Source: Deltaproteobacteria bacterium (GTDB taxonomy: Bacteria > Desulfobacterota > BSN033 > UBA1163). From it: a stretch of 18,990 nt of DNA. The notes under the pieces are model-generated. The model saw only the letters and a program-made list of their open reading frames with translations. It was not told the DNA's origin and searched no databases. Shown here one piece after another: positions 1,504-18,866 of the stretch. The stretch lies in NCBI GenBank assembly GCA_016875155.1, contig VGSD01000003.1, positions 1 to 18,990 on the forward strand, in the 5' to 3' direction. The stretch's first letter is position 1. The number at the start of each line of letters is the position of its first letter. The position numbers were made by a program, and so were the translations under genes.

Positions 1504-2178
1504 TTAACCCATGGCTTTCCCATCGGTGAGAATGACCTGCCTGGGCATTTGGGCAGCCAGATTCGGGTTGTGCGTCACGACGATGAGTGTTATGTTCTTG
1601 ATCCGGTTCAGTTCCTGAAGAAGAGCGAAAACCGATTCCCCTGTTTTTGAATCGAGATTTCCCGTGGGTTCATCCGCCAGGAGGATTTTCGGTTCCAGGA
1701 CCAGGGCCCTGGCAACGGCTACCCTCTGCTGTTCTCCTCCGGAGAGTTCTCCCGGTTTATGGGGGAGTCGATCTTTTAAACCTACGAGGGTGAGCATGGC
1801 TTCAGCACGAAGGGCGGCCTCTTTCTTTGACGTCCCTTGGATTAGGCAGGGCATCATCGTATTCTCCAGGGCAGTGAATTCCGGCAAGAGATGATGGAAC
1901 TGGAAGACGAATCCGATCTCTTGATTACGAAACGAAGCAAGCTCTTTTTCATTTAGCGTGAAGATATCTCGTCCGCTGTAAAGCACCTTTCCAGAAGTAG
2001 GCCGGTCAAGTGTCCCAAGGATATGAAGCAAGGTTGTCTTTCCCACCCCAGAGGCACCCACAATGGCGGCCTTTTCACCTTGGGAAAAAATGAGATCAAT
2101 TCCCCTGAGGACCTCAACCTTCTTTGCTCCATTTCCAAACGATTTGAAGAGCTGCTGAACCTGAATCAATTCCTTCAC
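1504..2178 (-). CDS. lolD: LolD-type lipoprotein-releasing ABC transporter ATP-binding protein
   Basis: This is the ATPase that powers extraction of outer-membrane lipoproteins from the inner membrane by a LolC/E-type permease. The 224-residue length is normal for the family. Visible motifs are Walker [10 protein letters not shown] (41-49), the Q-loop glutamine in [12 protein letters not shown] (Q93), the ABC signature LSGGEQQ (145-151), Walker B ILLADEP (165-171) followed by the D-loop region TGNLD, and the H-loop histidine H203 in VVTHN. The start is a GTG at 2178 that overlaps the stop of the preceding gene as GTGA. An AAGGAG lies 8 bases upstream, so translational coupling is likely. Its permease is encoded two genes upstream, separated by the cyclic-nucleotide-binding protein gene. 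MacB-like export is the alternative role, but the FtsX-type partner and bamA neighbour favour Lol. Confidence 0.92.
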
Positions 2179-3353
2179 ACCAAGGGCTCCTTCTCCCTAT
2201 CTATCAATCCCCCGGAAAGGGCTTCTTTCATCCGGACGAGACGTTTTGAAGAGATCTCTTTCCCAACGGACTGAAAATGTGGAAACTTCTGTGCGAGGTT
2301 GTCAAAATCCCCCTTTGACAATTCCAGCAGTTCAGTAGGACAGGTCGTTTTTGCAAAAGCCATCCGGGGCGTATTGAGAACCACGCCGATCTCTCCAAAG
2401 AGATGGCCGCTTCCCAATTTTCCAAGGATCACGCGCTTTTTATGACGGTCCTGCGTGAAGATCTCAACCTCCCCGCTTTTAATCAGATAGAGGCAATGGG
2501 GAGGATCCCCTCCTTTAAAGATAGACGTTTCTTCCGGGATGTTCGTCAAACGAAACCGTTTTAAAACCTCTTCTCTGTCCGATATAGAAAGAGGTGAGAA
2601 GAGAGGGGAGAGGGCGAGCAGGTTATCCAGAACCCGTTTTTTAAAGAGATCCTCGAGCACTTCTTTCACCCGGGAGTGGTTTTGTATCATTCCCTCCAGT
2701 TCGTTTCGGGTGATCTCAAGGGTTTCGCATTCGATAAAGCTTTTGACGTCGGCATGCCTTTTCCGGTCGAGGAAGAAGCCGAACTCTCCAAAGCAATCCC
2801 CCTCTTTGAGGTTGCGGATCCATACCTCTTTCCCTTCGAAATGTTTATAGACTCCCACCTCCCCCTGACAGATCACCATCAAAGAATCTCCGGGTTCACC
2901 TTCGCGACAGAGAAAGCTCCCTTTTGGGAAGGTCCTGAATTGAACACGGTTGAGCAGGGCTTGAAGCTCTTCTTCTCTCAGATCGGAAAGCAATGGGATG
3001 CGGGGCAGGGGCCGGGAGGGTTTTGTTTCCTGGGCTCTCGCCATATAGAGTTGTGTTAATCGTTCGTTGGTATCTTTTGAAAGGGGGTCGATCCTCAAAA
3101 TCATCTTGTTCACAGAGATGGCCTGGAGCAGGAAACCCTCACTGGCGTAAGCCTCAGCCACGTGCCGGTACTCAGTGATCGCCTCCTTCTTCCTTCCCAA
3201 CCGCTCTGACAATTCAGCCATTTTCAACCGGGATCGAAGATCTTCAGGCTCCTGGTCCATATGCTTTTGAAAGGACTCCATGGCCTTTTTCCATTCTCCC
3301 CGGGAAAGAAATGAGAGCGCTTCTTCTTTATAGGAGATCCGTTCCTTATTCAT
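2175..3353 (-). CDS. TPR protein with two tandem cyclic-nucleotide-binding domains, inside the lol operon
   Basis: Function is unknown; the architecture suggests a ligand-sensing regulator or adaptor in the cytoplasm. Residues about 5-108 are helical with TPR-like periodicity (two to three repeats). CNB domain 1 spans about 118-240 and CNB domain 2 about 246-365. Each carries a phosphate-binding-cassette-like segment: FGE at 188-190 with R199 in domain 1, and [14 protein letters not shown] at 319-332 with R330 in domain 2. Domain 2 keeps the FGE...PR pattern that binds the cyclic phosphate in PKA/CAP-type domains; domain 1 has Lys in place of the Pro. The 27 residues after domain 2 leave no room for a helix-turn-helix, so it is not a CRP-like transcription factor. 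No signal peptide or membrane segment is seen. The ATG at 3353 overlaps the lolC stop by 8 bases and the gene ends overlapping lolD by 4. Domain assignment is firm; ligand and role are not. Confidence 0.85.
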
Positions 3354-4617
3354 ACCGCAATGCCTCAGCCGGGTCGAGTTTTGAAGCCCTCCAGGAGGGA
3401 TAGAGGGTGGCCAGCAGACTGATCAGGATGGCGGTGATGACGATCAGCGATACATCGAGTGGATTGACCTGTGAGGGAAATTTATCGATATAATAGACAT
3501 CCCTCGCAAGAATTTTGAATCCAAAAGAGTTCTCCAGGAAATCGATGATCTTCTCCAAATTGAATGCGATGAGCAGTCCTGCGATGGTTCCCAGGATCGT
3601 TCCAAAGAAGCCGATCACACCTCCCTCGATGACGAAGATCCTGAGGATGGATTTTGAAGGCGCGCCCATCGATTTCAGAATGGCGACATCCTTATTTTTC
3701 TCCATGACCACCATGATGAGCGTGGAGATGATGTTGAAGGCGGCCACCAGGACGATCAGAACGACAATGATAAACATGATAATTTTTTCCAGCTTGAGGG
3801 CGGAGAAGAGGTTGCGGTTCATCTCCATCCAGTCTTTGGTCCAGAAGGGGAACCCCATTGTTTTCCGGATCTCTCTGCCGATCTCTTTGACCTGATAGAT
3901 ATCTTCGGTCTTAATCTCGATTCCCGTGATGCGACCTTCCATTGCAAAAAACTTCTGCGCGCTTTCGAGGGAGACATAGGCCATGGTATTATCATATTCA
4001 TACATTCCGGAATAAAAGATTCCCTTGACCAGAAACCGTTTCATCTTGGGCATCATGCCCATGGGGGTCATCGTGCCCAGGGGAGAGATGACCTGAATAG
4101 GATCATTGACCGTGACGGAGAGGTGTTTGGCTAATTCCACACCGAGGATGATGCCAGGAAGGTCTTTCTCCTTCCCTTCTTTTGCCCTGTCCCCTTTAAG
4201 ATCCTCGAGGCGGCCAGCTTTGAGATTGCGGGCCAACTCCGTCACCTTGGCCACACGGTCGGGATCGATCCCCTTGAGGACGACCCCGGAAACCCCCGAT
4301 TCCGAAGAGAGCATCACCTGGCTGAAGATGAAGGGAGCCGCCGAAATCACGCCCTTTACCCCTTCCACCTTCTGGATCGCCTCTTCGTAATGGTCCATTC
4401 CCTTTTCGCTGGCTTTGAGCACCACGATATGGGCTTGGGTTCCGAGGATCTTCTCTTTGAGGGTCTGCTGGAATCCATTCATCACGGAGAGAACGACGAT
4501 GAGGGCCATCACACCCAGCATCACGCCTGCAATCGAGATGACGGTGATGATGGAAATGAAAGTCTGTTTTCGTTTGGCCTTCAGGTATCGCAGGCCGATG
4601 AACCATTCATATCGCAT
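3346..4617 (-). CDS. lolC: LolC/LolE-type lipoprotein-releasing system permease
   Basis: Inner-membrane permease of the Lol system, working with LolD to hand lipoproteins to the periplasmic carrier. At 423 residues it has the family size and topology: TM1 at about 19-45 ending in the conserved MNGF (46-49), a large periplasmic domain at about 50-270, then three C-terminal FtsX-type membrane segments at about 279-303, 328-352 and 388-408. It closes with the family-typical [17 protein letters not shown] (407-423). Only one LolC/E-type gene is present here, so the permease may be a homodimer (the LolF arrangement), although a second copy elsewhere cannot be excluded. It starts 48 bases after lysS, and its Shine-Dalgarno (GGGGAG) is rather far from the ATG. 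Its stop overlaps the start of the cyclic-nucleotide-binding protein gene. Confidence 0.92.
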   Translation of the reverse strand: MRYEWFIGLRYLKAKRKQTFISIITVISIAGVMLGVMALIVVLSVMNGFQQTLKEKILGTQAHIVVLKASEKGMDHYEEAIQKVEGVKGVISAAPFIFSQVMLSSESGVSGVVLKGIDPDRVAKVTELARNLKAGRLEDLKGDRAKEGKEKDLPGIILGVELAKHLSVTVNDPIQVISPLGTMTPMGMMPKMKRFLVKGIFYSGMYEYDNTMAYVSLESAQKFFAMEGRITGIEIKTEDIYQVKEIGREIRKTMGFPFWTKDWMEMNRNLFSALKLEKIIMFIIVVLIVLVAAFNIISTLIMVVMEKNKDVAILKSMGAPSKSILRIFVIEGGVIGFFGTILGTIAGLLIAFNLEKIIDFLENSFGFKILARDVYYIDKFPSQVNPLDVSLIVITAILISLLATLYPSWRASKLDPAEALRYE

Positions 4618-4665: not shown

Positions 4666-6147
4666 CTACTTTTCCAGCCTCAACAAAGGGAAGAAGATGA
4701 CATCCCGGATGGAAGGAGAATCCGTCAGAAGCATGACCCACCGATCGATCCCGATCCCTTCGCCCGCAGTGGGCGGCATTCCGAATTCGAGGGCGTGGAG
4801 AAAATCCTCGTCAAAAAAGAGAGAGGAATCCCCTTCCTCTGTTTTTTCCTTCAACTGCTGGAGGAAACGCTCTCTCTGATCCAGAGGATCATTGAGTTCT
4901 GAAAAACCATTGGCGATCTCCCGGCCTGCCATGAAAAGTTCAAACCGATCCACCACGTCCGGATCCTTCTCATTCCGGCGGGAGAGCGGTGAGACCTCAG
5001 TCGGGTAATGGGTGATGAAGGTGGGTTCGAGGAGATTGGGTTCCACCCGTTCCTTGAAGAGATCAGCCAGAACCCTTCCATGAGAGGTCCCTTTTTTCAG
5101 TTCCAGACCGACCCCCTTTGCGACTTCAATCGCCTTTGATGGATCCTTTAAAATCATCGGGTCGAGCTTTCCGATCTCGACGAGAGAATCCTTGAAACGC
5201 ATTCGCCTCCAGGGGGTGCTAAAATCAATCTCCTTTCCCTGATAGGCAAGACGAAGCCCTCCATGAATTTCTTTGACCATGGAGCAAAGGAGTTCTTCGG
5301 TCATCTCCATCATTTCGATATAGGTCGCATAACTCTGGTAGAATTCGAGCATGGTAAATTCCGGATTATGAAAAGTGGAGATGCCTTCGTTGCGGAAACT
5401 CCGGTTGATCTCGAAAATTCTCTCAAGCCCGCCGATGACGAGCCGTTTCAGGTAAAGCTCAGGAGCGACCCTGAGAAAGAGTTTCATGTCGAGGGTATTA
5501 TGATGTGTCCTGAAGGGTTTGGCCGTTGCTCCTCCGGGAATGGGATGGAGCATGGGGGTTTCGACCTCACAGAAGCCTCTACGGTTAAAGAATTCACGGA
5601 TCTTCTGGATGACAAGGGCACGCGTGAGAAAGACCTCTTTAACCTTCGGGTTGGCGATCAGATCGAGGTAACGCTGGCGATAACGAATCTCGATATCGGT
5701 TAAGCCATGCCACTTCTCAGGAAGGGGACGAAGCGACTTTCCGAGAAGGCAGAACTTCTGAACCTGAAGGGTGAGTTCTCCTGTTTTGGTCCGGAAAACT
5801 TTTCCTTCTAATCCGACAAAATCTCCGATATCCAATCTTTTAAAGAACCGGAAGGGTTCTTCACCGATGATCTCTTTCTGAAAATAAGCCTGTATCTTTC
5901 CATCCCGGTCCTTGACCTGAATGAAACTGGCCTTGCCAAAATTCCGGATGGCCACGATCCTTCCAGCAAGGCAGAAGCTCTCTGAAACGGATTTGAGTTC
6001 TTCTTCGGAAAGGGCGCCAAAGGCTTTCAGGATATCTCCGGAGGTATGGGTCACCTTGAAATCATTAGGATAGGGGTTTCGTCCCTCCTCCCTCAAGGCC
6101 TCCAGTTTTCGTATTCTCTGTTGGATCAATTCATTTGTCTCATCCAT
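4666..6147 (-). CDS. lysS: lysyl-tRNA synthetase, class II
   Basis: Charges tRNA-Lys with lysine using ATP, in the cytoplasm. The 493 residues match the class II LysRS length. An N-terminal OB-fold anticodon-binding domain lies at about 55-140 (LAGRIVAIRNFGKASFIQ). The class II catalytic core follows with motif 1 near 181-200 (REFFNRRGFCEVETPML), motif 2 near 244-266 (FEINRSFRNEG then the FHNPEFTMLE segment), and motif 3 near 463-490 (GEGIGIDRW, then the conserved R481 region RDVIFFPLLR). The HPIPGGATAKPF segment (201-212) is characteristic of LysRS. It is the first gene of the lysS-lolC-cnb-lolD-bamA run. The ATG at 6147 has only a weak purine stretch before it. Confidence 0.97.
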   Translation of the reverse strand: MDETNELIQQRIRKLEALREEGRNPYPNDFKVTHTSGDILKAFGALSEEELKSVSESFCLAGRIVAIRNFGKASFIQVKDRDGKIQAYFQKEIIGEEPFRFFKRLDIGDFVGLEGKVFRTKTGELTLQVQKFCLLGKSLRPLPEKWHGLTDIEIRYRQRYLDLIANPKVKEVFLTRALVIQKIREFFNRRGFCEVETPMLHPIPGGATAKPFRTHHNTLDMKLFLRVAPELYLKRLVIGGLERIFEINRSFRNEGISTFHNPEFTMLEFYQSYATYIEMMEMTEELLCSMVKEIHGGLRLAYQGKEIDFSTPWRRMRFKDSLVEIGKLDPMILKDPSKAIEVAKGVGLELKKGTSHGRVLADLFKERVEPNLLEPTFITHYPTEVSPLSRRNEKDPDVVDRFELFMAGREIANGFSELNDPLDQRERFLQQLKEKTEEGDSSLFFDEDFLHALEFGMPPTAGEGIGIDRWVMLLTDSPSIRDVIFFPLLRLEK

Positions 6148-9829: not shown

Positions 9830-10774
9830 ATGGCCAGATCCGTTAGGATGGAGTATCCCGAGACTTTCTATCATATATTGTCACGTGGAAATGAAAAGCG
9901 AGACATATTTTATGGCAGAGAGGATTATCTACGGTTTCTTGATATTCTTGAGAAAACAGTGGAGCGTTTTAAATTGGAGATACATGCTTATGTGTTGATG
10001 AAAAATCATTATCATCTTTTAGTCCGGACGACAGAGAGCAACCTTTCCCGGGCAATCCAGTGGTTGGGTGTAAGTTATTCTGTTTGGTTTAACCGCCGCC
10101 ATCAGCGAAGTGGTCATCTGTTTCAGGGGCGCTTTAAAAGTTTTATGATTGAGAATGATCGTTACTTTGCAGCTACATGCCTTTACATTCATGGGAATCC
10201 GCTTAGGGCTGGACTCGTGAAAAGCTTGTGGGATTATCCATGGAGTAGTTGCCGAGCGTATATGAATAAAAGGCAAGAGGTATCATGGTTAACAACAGAA
10301 TTAATATTAGGGATGTATGGAGGGAACCGGAAGGCGTTTATCGCTGCGCAGGAGGATTCGGTTAGAAGCAATGAGAATATTTTGGATAAACTTTGGCATG
10401 GATTATATCTTGGGAGTAAAGAATTTGGTGAAGAATGTATCAAAAAGTTAAAGAGAGAGAGTCATCGAGAAAAGCCCCAAGGTAGGTCATTGTTACGGGA
10501 GAGAAATATACAGAGCATGGCTTTAGAGATCCTTGAGAAATTGGGAGAGAGAAATCCCCAATTAGTGCTGCAAGTCCGGAAGTCTCGTTGTTGGAATAGA
10601 GATATAACAATGTATATTTTATATCAACTGGGTATCTATCGGAATAAAGAGATTGGGGAGCTATTCGGAGTAGGATATACGGCGGTGTCAGGAGCAGTAA
10701 AGCGGGCTCTATTATATTTTAACAGAGATCACCACCTGGAGAGAGAGGTTAAGAGAATAATTAATGACATATGA
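9830..10774 (+). CDS. REP-associated tyrosine transposase (RAYT, Y1/HUH family)
   Basis: A single-strand DNA transposase-like protein of the IS200/IS605 superfamily branch associated with palindromic repeats. The 314-residue chain starts with the family-typical RMEYPETFYHILSRGNEKRDIF. It carries the HUH metal-binding motif H60-Y61-H62 in MKNHYHLLV, the conserved GHLFQGRFKS (95-104), and the likely catalytic tyrosine Y119 in YIHGNPLRAGLV. The C-terminal third adds a helix-turn-helix-like segment (NKEIGELFGVGYTAVSGAVKRA, 272-293), as in the longer RAYT types with a DnaA-like HTH. All catalytic residues are intact and there is no frameshift. Codon use is more AT-rich than the neighbours. Its stop codon lies within the right inverted repeat, and its last 11 bases overlap the next reading frame. 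Confidence 0.92.
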   Translation: MARSVRMEYPETFYHILSRGNEKRDIFYGREDYLRFLDILEKTVERFKLEIHAYVLMKNHYHLLVRTTESNLSRAIQWLGVSYSVWFNRRHQRSGHLFQGRFKSFMIENDRYFAATCLYIHGNPLRAGLVKSLWDYPWSSCRAYMNKRQEVSWLTTELILGMYGGNRKAFIAAQEDSVRSNENILDKLWHGLYLGSKEFGEECIKKLKRESHREKPQGRSLLRERNIQSMALEILEKLGERNPQLVLQVRKSRCWNRDITMYILYQLGIYRNKEIGELFGVGYTAVSGAVKRALLYFNRDHHLEREVKRIINDI

Positions 10775-16023: not shown

Positions 16024-16066
16024 TTATGATAGAGTTTCTTCGTACTTACTCCTTTTGGGAGGGCGC

Positions 16067-16969
16067 ATGATGAAAAAGAGAATTGTTTTTATTATTGGGA
16101 TCTTTTTCTTATTGAGCACCCTGAGTTGTGGGGATTCAGGGAAGGGGGATTTGGGCAGGAAGGAGCTGGTGAGAATCAACAAACTCTCCATCTCGATCGA
16201 AGAATTTCGCCAAATGTCAGAGAAACAACCCCTTGAAGGAAAGATGAGACTTCTCGATGAGAAGGGGATGAGAGATTTCCTTGAAAATTATGTGATCACC
16301 CGGGAGGTCCTTTACCAAGAAGCGAAGAAGAAGGGATTCGATAAGAAGGAGGAGATCCTGGCTAAAGTAGACGATTTCAGAAGGGCGATGATCATTGATG
16401 CACTTATTGAAGAGGAGTTAAGAGGAAAGAGCGAGGCCACCAATGAGGAGATCCAGCGATACTACAGGGAGAATAAATCGCTCTTTACCGAACCCGTGGA
16501 GGTGAAGGTCCGTCACATCGTAGTCAACTCCGAACCTGTGCTCAAGGAAGTGTTGACGAGACTTTCAAAAGGAGAAAGTTTTGAGAAACTTGCCTCCACT
16601 TTCAATATTGACCGGACACGGGAGGATGGAGGAAATCTCGGTTATATCCGGAGGGGCCAACTGGCGCCCTCCTTTGCTCAATTTGAGGAGGCCGCTTTTT
16701 CACTGGTGAAGAAAGGAGAGCTGAGCGAGGTGGTGAGAACGCCCTATGGATTTCACATCATCCAATTGGAAGAGATGCGTGGGGCCAACCTGAGGCCCCT
16801 CGAACAGGTAAGGGAGAGGATCCGCTTCTTTCTTCAAGCAAAGAAGAGGCAGGAGGCTTATCTCGGCTATGTGAAAGAGGTGAAATCGAAGGCGAGCATC
16901 CTCATCAATGAGAAACTATGGGCCGAGGAAGAGAAGAGAGGAGAAAAGACAAAGGAAGATAAGAAATGA
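16067..16969 (+). CDS. PpiC/SurA-type peptidyl-prolyl isomerase, probable lipoprotein (first of three)
   Basis: A periplasmic folding factor, likely membrane-anchored. From the ATG at 16067 it has 300 residues: a hydrophobic signal at about 3-20 ending at Cys21 (STLSC, an imperfect lipobox), a SurA-like helical N-terminal region at about 30-140, and a parvulin domain at about 145-237. The domain keeps the two active-site-region histidines H150 (VRHIVV) and H230 (YGFHII), plus the GGNLGYIRRGQ loop. The C-terminus is a lysine/glutamate-rich tail. A GGGAGGG lies just upstream, which rules against the earlier in-frame TTG at 16055; the ATG at 16070 is an alternative. It is 43 bases after mfd and overlaps the next gene by ATGA. 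Confidence 0.88.
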   Translation: MMKKRIVFIIGIFFLLSTLSCGDSGKGDLGRKELVRINKLSISIEEFRQMSEKQPLEGKMRLLDEKGMRDFLENYVITREVLYQEAKKKGFDKKEEILAKVDDFRRAMIIDALIEEELRGKSEATNEEIQRYYRENKSLFTEPVEVKVRHIVVNSEPVLKEVLTRLSKGESFEKLASTFNIDRTREDGGNLGYIRRGQLAPSFAQFEEAAFSLVKKGELSEVVRTPYGFHIIQLEEMRGANLRPLEQVRERIRFFLQAKKRQEAYLGYVKEVKSKASILINEKLWAEEEKRGEKTKEDKK

Positions 16970-17898
16970 GAAGGTTTTATTTCCATGTCTGTTGGTTGTT
17001 CATCCTCTTTCTGTTTTCAGGATGCGGGTTGTGGGAAGGTGGGCTTCCAGAGGATATTCTTGCACGAATCAACGGTGAAGAGGTTACCATTGAGGAATTT
17101 AATCGGGAGTTTAAAGAGTTGGTCACCGACCCGAAAAGGGAAGGGAGCCAGCTAGGCCTAAGGGAACTTAAAGAGGCCTATCTCGATCAGATGGTCGAGC
17201 GGAAGATCCTTGCACAGGAGGCCAGACGATTGGGGATCCAGGTCTCCGCAGAAGAAGTGAGCCAGGCGATCCTTGAGATCAAAAAAGACTATCCCGGAGA
17301 GGGATTCGGAGAGACATTAAACCTTAAAGGGATGAACCTGGAGGAATGGAAGGTTCGTCTGGAGGAGAAGTTACTGGCAGAGAAGATGGTCCGAAGCGGC
17401 CACCAGTACCAGGGAAAGATAGAGGAGAAGGAGGCCCGGGAGTTTTACGAGACCCATCGCTCCCTATTTCAACTTCCGAGAAGGGTGAGAGTACGTCAGA
17501 TTGTCGTGGCGGATGGAAATGAAGCGATTCAAATCCAGAAGCGGTTAAAAAAGGGAGAGAATTTTGAGAAACTGGCTAAGGATAAGTCGCTGGGGCTCGA
17601 GAAAGTCCGTGGAGGCGACTTGGGCTATTTTAGCCAGGGAGAAAAACCTGCGGAATTCGATCCTGTCTTCTCGATGGAGGCAGGAACCATCAGCGACGTG
17701 ATCAAGAGTCCTTATGGATACCACATCTTCAAATTGGAGGAGAAAACAGAGCCCCGGGAGGTCTCTTTCGAGGAGGCAAGAAAGAGCATTCTTCAAAAAC
17801 TTGAACGTGAGAAGGGAGAGGAGGCATATCAGAGGTGGTTCAAAGATCTAAGAGAGAGAGCAAAGGTGCAAATCAACAGAAAATGGCTCAAATCATGA
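16966..17898 (+). CDS. PpiC/SurA-type peptidyl-prolyl isomerase-like lipoprotein (second of three)
   Basis: A probable periplasmic chaperone related to its neighbours. The 310 residues contain a lipoprotein signal with FSGC at 17-20 (Cys20 lipidated), a SurA-like helical segment at about 28-165 starting ILARINGEEVTIEEF, and a parvulin domain at about 172-258. The domain has the GGDLGYFSQGE loop and the second histidine H253 (YGYHIF). The first conserved parvulin histidine is replaced by glutamine (VRQIVV, Q178), so catalytic activity may be reduced while chaperone function remains possible. The ATG overlaps the previous stop as ATGA, and its own stop overlaps the next start the same way. The three genes are probably translated together. 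Confidence 0.88.
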   Translation: MRRFYFHVCWLFILFLFSGCGLWEGGLPEDILARINGEEVTIEEFNREFKELVTDPKREGSQLGLRELKEAYLDQMVERKILAQEARRLGIQVSAEEVSQAILEIKKDYPGEGFGETLNLKGMNLEEWKVRLEEKLLAEKMVRSGHQYQGKIEEKEAREFYETHRSLFQLPRRVRVRQIVVADGNEAIQIQKRLKKGENFEKLAKDKSLGLEKVRGGDLGYFSQGEKPAEFDPVFSMEAGTISDVIKSPYGYHIFKLEEKTEPREVSFEEARKSILQKLEREKGEEAYQRWFKDLRERAKVQINRKWLKS

Positions 17899-18866
17899 GA
17901 AGCCTAAGAAAAACCTTTTTTAGACTTGGGATTCTTTTTCTCATATCGGCGTTCTTCTCTTTAAGCGAAGCAGCGGTTGATCGAATCGTGGCTGTGGTCA
18001 ATCAGGAGATCATCACCCTCTCGGAGGTGGAGAAGCTCATCAGTCCTCTCGTGGCGGAGATCAGGGAGGGAAGCCCTCTGGAGAGGCGCGGCCGCATCAA
18101 TGAACTCTCCCGGATGGCACTCGAGAAACTGATTGAGGAGAAGTTGATTGATCAGGAAGCCAAGAAATCTGGGATCAAGGTGGCTGCCAAAGAGGTCGAT
18201 GGGGCCATCGAAGAGATCAGACGGAGAAATTCAATCACCCAGGAAGATCTTGAGAAGGTGTTGGCCAGAGATGGATTGACTCTGGAGGCATTTAAAAAAG
18301 ATATCGAAAAGAAGATTCTCCGGAGCAAGGTGGTTCAATGGGCAGTGAAAGTGGAGCCCAATGTGGGAGAGAAGGAATTGAGGGATTTCTATCTGAAGAA
18401 TTCGGACAGTTACAAGACAGAAGAATCTTATCGCCCTGCCCATATTCTCTTCAAGGTTCCAAAAGAAGCCACCCCCGAAGAAGTTCGAGAAATCAGGGCG
18501 AAATGTCAGAAGGTCCAGGCGAAACTGAAGGCTGGGGAGGATTTTGGAGAGGTGGCCGTCCTCTATTCTGAAGATGCCTCGAGCAAGGAAAAAGGAGATC
18601 TGGGTTTTTTCAAAAAGGGAGAATTGCTTCCTGCATTTGAGAAAGAAGCACTGCGGCTAAAGGTCGGGGAGATAAGTGGAATCATTCGGACCGATCAAGG
18701 GTTTCACATCATCAAACTTCTCGAGCGGAAAGGAGGCCATCCTCTTCCGTTTGAAGAGATAAAAGACAAGGTCCGGCAGGACTATCTTGAGAGAGAATTC
18801 GAAAAGGGTCTCAAGCAGTATCTCAACACCCTCAAGGCAAAAGCGATCATCGAAATCAAATTGTGA
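17895..18866 (+). CDS. surA: SurA-like periplasmic peptidyl-prolyl isomerase (third of three)
   Basis: A soluble periplasmic chaperone for outer-membrane proteins. The 323 residues start with a cleavable signal peptide (about 1-26, SLSEA then AVDR) followed by the SurA-typical VDRIVAVVNQEIITLSEVEKL (28-48). The helical chaperone module continues to about 170 and a single parvulin domain lies at about 178-278, with H183 (PAHILF) and H271 (QGFHII) intact. It has one parvulin domain where E. coli SurA has two, which is common outside gammaproteobacteria. The start at 17895 forms an ATGA overlap with the preceding gene; the ATG at 17883 is a less likely alternative because it lengthens the basic region before the signal. 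It ends just before a palindromic repeat. Confidence 0.88.
   Translation: MRSLRKTFFRLGILFLISAFFSLSEAAVDRIVAVVNQEIITLSEVEKLISPLVAEIREGSPLERRGRINELSRMALEKLIEEKLIDQEAKKSGIKVAAKEVDGAIEEIRRRNSITQEDLEKVLARDGLTLEAFKKDIEKKILRSKVVQWAVKVEPNVGEKELRDFYLKNSDSYKTEESYRPAHILFKVPKEATPEEVREIRAKCQKVQAKLKAGEDFGEVAVLYSEDASSKEKGDLGFFKKGELLPAFEKEALRLKVGEISGIIRTDQGFHIIKLLERKGGHPLPFEEIKDKVRQDYLEREFEKGLKQYLNTLKAKAIIEIKL

Follow-up and report, generated by a model that had tools for sequence, protein, structure and literature searches.

A tandem cyclic-nucleotide-binding protein encoded between lolC and lolD, a candidate modulator of lipoprotein export

An 18,990-nucleotide stretch of a deltaproteobacterial contig (here called the window) carries, between the permease gene and the ATPase gene of a Lol-type lipoprotein exporter, a gene that we have termed cnb, whose 392-residue product combines a TPR-like module with two cyclic-nucleotide-binding (CNB) domains. 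The gene retains its pocket residues, is under purifying selection and occupies a fixed slot between lolC and lolD as an optional element, and relatives encode catalytically complete class III cyclases. We see the balance as even on whether cnb is a cyclic-nucleotide receptor that works with and modulates the LolC(F)/LolD exporter, a reading in which we infer the ligand, the physical partner and the direction of the effect. Outer-membrane lipoproteins are released by LolD and its permease together with periplasmic LolA, and on the evidence of sequence the supply of these lipoproteins to the outer membrane may be under second-messenger control. The first-pass annotation knew of no description of such control, and a Lol-linked CNB protein indeed seems to be undescribed, as our search of the open-licence literature found no account of a tandem-CNB receptor paired with a Lol exporter.

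The cnb gene and its product

The genes on the minus strand of the window follow the order rimO, lysS, lolC, cnb, lolD and a bamA-like gene. These genes and the parts of the cnb product are as follows:

7622-6279, minus strand: rimO, the gene 5' of lysS
4666..6147, minus strand: lysS, upstream gene of the conserved cluster, from Pfam and synteny
3346..4617, minus strand: lolC, upstream neighbour of cnb; matches TIGR02212 (LolC/E type) at 460.2 bits against a cut-off of 362.45
2175..3353, minus strand: cnb, open reading frame with an ATG start, 392 aa, TPR, CNB-A and CNB-B in that order, from Pfam, the AlphaFold model and conservation
3030..3332, minus strand: TPR-like module of cnb, residues 8-108, from three helical hairpins in the AlphaFold model, sub-threshold Pfam TPR matches and TPR assignments in relatives
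2676..2936, minus strand: CNB-A, residues 140-226, the best PF00027 stretch
2745..2792, minus strand: phosphate-binding cassette of CNB-A, residues 188-203, FGE...R199, with E190 and R199 conserved
2286..2585, minus strand: CNB-B, residues 257-356, the second PF00027 stretch, with limits from the model
2352..2399, minus strand: phosphate-binding cassette of CNB-B, residues 319-334, FGE...R330, from the conservation of E321 and R330
1504..2178, minus strand: lolD (ATPase), GTG start, downstream neighbour of cnb, from position and TIGR02211
3..1439, minus strand: bamA-like open reading frame with five PF07244 (POTRA) stretches, downstream, cut by the window end

The first-pass annotation had placed a CNB gene between lolC and lolD with overlaps of 8 and 4 bases, and the open reading frame coordinates confirm it: the start of cnb lies within the end of lolC, with 8 bases common to both genes, and at its other end the stop codon of cnb and the GTG start codon of lolD share the 4 bases GTGA. 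The product of lolD finds its best match, among 190 families, in TIGR02211, where its 295.6 bits fall slightly short of the cut-off of 307.75. The permease is of the LolC/E type and probably of the LolF kind. Since 17 of 18 sampled genomes of the class yield a single match of the LolC/E type at E 1e-40, with 4 candidates scored in each, the window transporter is probably a LolF homodimer with LolD, the lipoprotein-release transporter described in PMC11784454. Elsewhere in the window, three consecutive SurA/PpiC-type prolyl isomerase genes follow mfd (16055-18866) and are further candidate outer-membrane-protein chaperones less than 20 kb from the lol-bam cluster. A 314-aa Y1-type transposase-like protein (9830-10774; PF01797, IS200-like) is encoded between LUD/Fe-S oxidoreductase-like and FAD-dependent oxidoreductase genes.

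Pfam finds two PF00027 stretches in the cnb product (E 2e-41) and no DNA-binding domain, with no helix-turn-helix at E 0.001, and reading of the N-terminus reveals no apparent signal peptide. The TPR matches of the window copy fall below the Pfam cut-offs, and TPRs are assigned in many of the 120 listed relatives described below. An AlphaFold model built on a 25-row alignment (mean pLDDT 86, pTM 0.58) is confident for each domain and shows three helical hairpins (residues 8-108), CNB-A, a long linking helix, CNB-B and a single C-terminal helix (residues 359-379) that runs into a low-confidence tail; at so modest a pTM, the placement of the domains relative to one another should not be trusted. 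Its nearest folds are the CNB domains of PKA, PKG, HCN, SthK and CRP-type proteins, in a comparison that covered mainly residues 113-382. The earlier description of a TPR-like region followed by two CNB domains, with no DNA-binding domain, thus agrees with both Pfam and the model. A CRP/FNR-like transcription factor was considered and rejected, as the protein has no C-terminal helix-turn-helix.

An optional gene at a fixed site

A protein search with the cnb product returned at least 623 proteins at E 1e-20 or better among the 7997 candidates scored, those that share most words with it. The 120 relatives listed are 60–95% identical to the window protein and nearly all 370–410 aa long, and many are labelled 'cAMP-dependent protein kinase regulator' or 'CRP-like cAMP-binding protein' in the source databases, labels that do not show the link to Lol. 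Fourteen full-length relatives in named contigs (58–84% identity), titled Deltaproteobacteria, Thermodesulfobacteriota, Syntrophaceae, uncultured proteobacterium or uncultured bacterium, all keep the order lolC-cnb-lolD-bamA. By tblastn coordinates, the 4-base overlap of cnb with lolD is kept in 14/14 (in L008 and L009 via an extended cut alignment) and the 8-base overlap of lolC with cnb in 13/14, the exception being L013. All 26 aligned rows, which comprise the window protein and 25 relatives chosen from the 120, end in a Val; in the window, its codon overlaps the start of lolD.

We then surveyed the class of G001, the nearest genome found (that of locus L001), scoring all candidates in its 23 genomes. 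Matches to cnb occur in 22 of these, one each at E 1e-25 and with no second match in any genome, and in 21 of the 23 the gene lies between lolC and lolD (17 and 4 by two context readings); the G020 copy is split over two frames. The remaining match, in G022, is inside an open frame of 1120 codons, and the lolC and lolD of that genome are adjacent (L120). Among plasmid records, 15 have partial matches and none covers 80% of cnb.

The phylum was sampled with 395 genomes drawn evenly, of which 384 have LolC-type permeases. A wider CNB model (A2) matched 71 genomes at E 1e-40 or better, and cnb is linked to lol in at least 62 of the 395: in 56 on both sides and in 6 with one side cut by a contig end (G044, G065, G116, G131, G258 and G400). 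Lol-linked copies reach down to about 25% identity. Six genomes (G033, G045, G053, G070, G089 and G105) have a TPR-CNB-type protein, in some cases seen in part, only away from lol, and three of the 71 matches (G023, G058 and G394) lie within long open frames of 737–1044 aa. These counts leave out the fragment matches G053:C1:426834, G107:C85 and G044:C38 and some extra weak places, and the numbers of linked and unlinked copies are lower bounds, because scoring was confined to the 4 best candidates of each genome. Scattered orthologues with no link to lol would have spoken against the first-pass annotation, and the outcome was in its favour: of the 68 genomes that have a stand-alone protein of this type, 62 carry it at lol and 6 solely at other places, both numbers being lower bounds and some of the 68 proteins being seen in part.

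The other 324 genomes have no cnb match at E 1e-40, which indicates that the exporter does not need cnb; one of them (G168) has a fragment of the gene behind lolC, where the contig ends (L122). We examined the junction in 39 genomes without a match at lol, picked non-randomly among the higher-scoring LolC entries listed; two of the 39 (G022 and G045) carry a CNB match elsewhere. In 38 of them lolC is directly followed by lolD, the 39th being G168, and bamA follows lolD in 37 of the 38, with the contig ending in the last. The gap between lolC and lolD is -32 to 198 bases in 34 of the 38, and in the other 4 the longest lolD reading extends 62–212 bases back into lolC. The statement in the first-pass annotation that the two genes normally sit side by side therefore holds for these 38 genomes, and their direct adjacency makes cnb an optional element at one fixed site. 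At one locus (L075, 5400-12960) lolC is followed by another lolC-like gene, three cnb copies in tandem, lolD and then bamA, so that this lol site has a triplicated receptor gene and a duplicated permease.

Related proteins also occur away from lol. Two genomes (G035 and G100) carry an extra unlinked TPR-CNB copy besides the linked one. The five unlinked copies placed on a tree do not group as a single clade (4 changes), and a clean 'cyclase-linked sister family' is accordingly unsupported. Three other phyla were covered. The wider model matched 26/148 genomes in the phylum of G404 (Nitrospirae, L019) and 15/149 in that of G403 (Acidobacteria, L018), each with 12 candidates scored per genome, and 5/97 in that of G405 (Halobacteriovoraceae, L022; up to 19 candidates scored); many matches are proteins with a TPR and one CNB, or long proteins. 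None of the 20 contexts read (13, 5 and 2) from these 46 matched genomes has a CNB gene beside lolC or lolD; for L186, L192, L198 and L200 this is based solely on their lack of labelled Lol genes, because pruning of the open reading frames left their CNB gene unlabelled. Distant LolC-like genes (23–27%) stand several genes from the CNB gene in L196. In the phylum of G404, we also observed adjacent pairs of genes for proteins with a TPR and a single CNB, mostly about 260–315 aa (L159, L161-L164, L166 and L168), not beside lolC or lolD in the contexts examined.

It is possible that the protein is a cyclic-nucleotide receptor that uses the lol operon only for the timing of its expression and acts elsewhere, for example as a membrane TPR scaffold or on the BAM/Mla side. 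The TPR-CNB proteins found away from lol, as the only copy in six genomes and as an extra copy in two, fit such a role, as do the 20 contexts from other phyla. We nevertheless think it rather improbable, since every copy examined in a lysS-bamA cluster, across the 62 phylum-sample genomes, lies between the permease and the ATPase.

Pocket residues, selection and cyclases

In known CNB sites, the pocket Glu and Arg contact the ribose and the cyclic phosphate. The FGE glutamate and cassette arginine that the first-pass annotation had reported in both domains are present in the window protein, and the pockets appear intact across its relatives as well: among 65 lol-linked rows of the alignment, E190 and R199 of CNB-A and E321 of CNB-B are each found in 65/65, and R330 of CNB-B in 53/65 (7 H, 5 A; Ala is found in L098, L099, L100 and L102). 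The 65 rows represent 63 different proteins, because L012/L041 and L014/L043 are identical pairs. These counts use CNB matches with at least 300 aligned residues; they leave out L089, L095, L096, L097, L104, L105 and the third L075 copy, as well as L205, L206 and L122, and they treat L062, L072 and L101 as lol-linked. The loss of the CNB-B Arg in 12 of the 65 rows counts against a receptor for cyclic nucleotides.

Compared with four relatives, cnb has a dN/dS of 0.12–0.19, which indicates purifying selection, and the values are 0.05–0.08 for lolC, and 0.08–0.10 for lolD, with lysS, lolC and lolD all within 0.05–0.10. By this measure cnb is constrained, but less so than the transporter genes. 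To judge from its retention in 14/14 relatives and in at least 62/395 genomes together with this dN/dS, the lolC-cnb-lolD arrangement is not a matter of chance. A passenger gene that came to lie between lolC and lolD and persists there without function would be in keeping with the faster evolution of cnb and with its absence from most of the phylum sample. We regard this as highly improbable given the purifying selection and invariant pocket, the retention of the same neighbours at about 25% identity and the triplication in place. No column of LolC or LolD cleanly separates cnb-bearing from cnb-lacking genomes (64 versus 38 sequences for LolD and 61 versus 38 for LolC), a comparison confounded by descent. 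The identities of LolC and the CNB protein are correlated (Spearman 0.66 over 1770 pairs from 60 loci), which is no evidence of co-evolution beyond common descent, as no control gene was compared.

A potential source of second messenger is encoded throughout the class, with PF00211 cyclases above the cut-off in 23/23 genomes. Those with cnb at lol have 1 to 12 matches, and cyclases are also found in the two class genomes without it, most of all in G023, with 36. A 7TM-like membrane cyclase is present at full length in 14 of the 20 class genomes examined (459 aa in G001, with a weak N-terminal 7TM match), and all 14 keep both metal-binding Asp residues, a Lys/Thr pair, which we take to be of the adenylyl-cyclase type, and an Asn/Arg pair. 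In 9 of the 14 (L215:3374-7517, and also L210, L211, L217, L218, L221, L222, L223 and L224) this gene stands tail to tail with mlaD, with mlaF and mlaE next in the 7 where the stretch extends that far, and a gene for a metallo-beta-lactamase-fold protein is mostly found upstream. The other 5 loci have no mla gene within the stretch fetched. This neighbourhood suggests a possible link of cAMP to phospholipid transport. At two loci (L066:3810-9162 and L094:4537-8193) the gene immediately behind one for a CHASE2-class III cyclase encodes an unlinked TPR-CNB-CNB paralogue, with a gene for a GAF-GAF-HD protein next in L066, and these clusters look like a pairing of signal-making with signal-reading. 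Together, the cyclases of the class, the membrane cyclase and the cyclase-linked paralogues make a cyclic mononucleotide the most likely ligand, though they do not prove it.

A further alternative keeps the site and the partner and changes the ligand, so that the protein would be a Lol modulator that senses ppGpp, another nucleotide or a lipid-derived metabolite. In textbook cAMP and cGMP sites the pocket Arg is followed by A, S or T, and in the window protein by the non-canonical residues H (CNB-A) and M (CNB-B). Ligands of other kinds are also known for CNB folds, as in HetC, whose CNB-bearing N-terminal part binds ppGpp with a Kd of 59 uM and gains no thermal protection from cAMP (PMC10986499), and this too counts against our preferred reading. 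The Glu and Arg are, however, invariant in CNB-A, every one of the 23 class genomes has class III cyclases, and two paralogues directly follow a cyclase gene, so that a different ligand seems unlikely to us.

In the reading we prefer, the cnb product would act in the cytoplasm as a soluble receptor. Its ligand would be a cyclic mononucleotide, with cAMP or cGMP the most likely, bound to CNB-A and usually also to CNB-B. On binding, the helices behind each beta-roll would take up a new arrangement, and this would alter the contact of the TPR module with the LolD ATPase or with the cytoplasmic face of the permease. The altered contact would raise or lower lipoprotein release, and the supply of outer-membrane lipoproteins would then follow the level of the second messenger. 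Counting against such a partnership, lysS and bamA in the same operon offer other partners for the protein. The absence of cnb from most of the phylum sample, the lack of a LolC or LolD column that marks its presence, the cyclases of class genomes without it at lol and the similar proteins encoded away from lol weigh against this reading as well. It is also conceivable, though distinctly unlikely as a whole, that cnb is a cAMP-gated third component, with the mlaEFD-linked membrane adenylyl cyclase reporting the state of the envelope via cAMP to a LolD-bound TPR-CNB-CNB protein and thereby tuning lipid traffic and lipoprotein release together.

If our preferred reading is true, a widespread but optional second-messenger receptor would serve as a cytoplasmic control point of outer-membrane biogenesis, and a larger claim would be possible if a cAMP circuit were shown. 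Direct tests are feasible, since the soluble proteins lend themselves to production and assay and natural controls come from related genomes that have or lack the gene.

Comparison with known systems

The cnb product shares with PKA and PKG regulatory regions the tandem of CNB-A and CNB-B with FGE...R cassettes (PF00027 twice; E190, R199, E321 and R330), and many of its best sequence and solved-structure matches are such regions, along with CRP-type and channel CNBs. This resemblance is as expected for tandem CNBs. PKA regulatory subunits have an N-terminal docking/dimerisation domain and, before CNB-A, an inhibitor sequence RRx(S/T/A/G). The cnb product differs in having an N-terminal TPR module and no docking/dimerisation domain, as outside the CNBs there are only the TPR-type Pfam matches of residues 8-108, with their three hairpins. 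Residues 100-121 contain neither the inhibitor motif nor an RR pair. Membership among PKA regulatory subunits was rejected on both grounds.

A literal PKA-type subunit that holds a Ser/Thr kinase acting on Lol proteins strikes us as barely credible. Besides the many PKA and PKG matches, such a protein would accord with the PF00069 kinases found above the cut-off in 16/23 class genomes; however, 7 of the 21 class genomes with cnb at lol, G001 among them, have none above the cut-off (14 do), although these genomes may be incomplete, and the whole tandem superposes poorly, at a TM of 0.26–0.33 by model length among the 50 matches shown. No kinase is needed for the protein as we read it. The original interpretation, second-messenger control by a protein resembling a PKA regulatory subunit, therefore stands in part: the linkage to lol, the intact pockets and the cyclases of relatives support it, and its likeness to PKA regulatory subunits falls away as a claim about family.

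Among bacterial proteins, TIGR03896 (cyc_nuc_ocin) is alike in being a CNB protein, one named by NCBI for its association with bacteriocin-type transport. It has two CNB domains, and we know of no Lol link and no TPR module in it; cnb scores 37.6 bits against this family, below the cut-off of 161.05. The paralogues of the CHASE2-cyclase clusters (L066 and L094) have the same TPR-CNB-CNB domain order at 35% identity to the window protein, and differ in standing beside a class III cyclase gene and not at lol.

HetC of Nostoc is similar to the present case in that a CNB domain is tied to an ABC exporter. It is a peptidase-containing ABC exporter whose N-terminal CNB domain is required for function (PMC10986499); it differs in that its single CNB is fused to the exporter and that the ligand identified was ppGpp, whereas cnb encodes a separate protein with a TPR module and two CNBs beside an exporter of the Lol type. 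The genes that flank cnb appear to be those of the LolDF/LolCDE transporter itself (lolF-lolD operon), and the window locus departs from that system by the extra gene between permease and ATPase. In the usual description, lipoprotein release to the outer membrane is carried out by LolD, its permease and periplasmic LolA, and the accessible text of that account (PMC11784454) names no cytoplasmic regulator, third subunit or inserted regulator for the Lol exporter. The parts of cnb are thus of known kinds, and its pairing with a Lol exporter is the new element, akin to the ABC exporters controlled by CNB domains.
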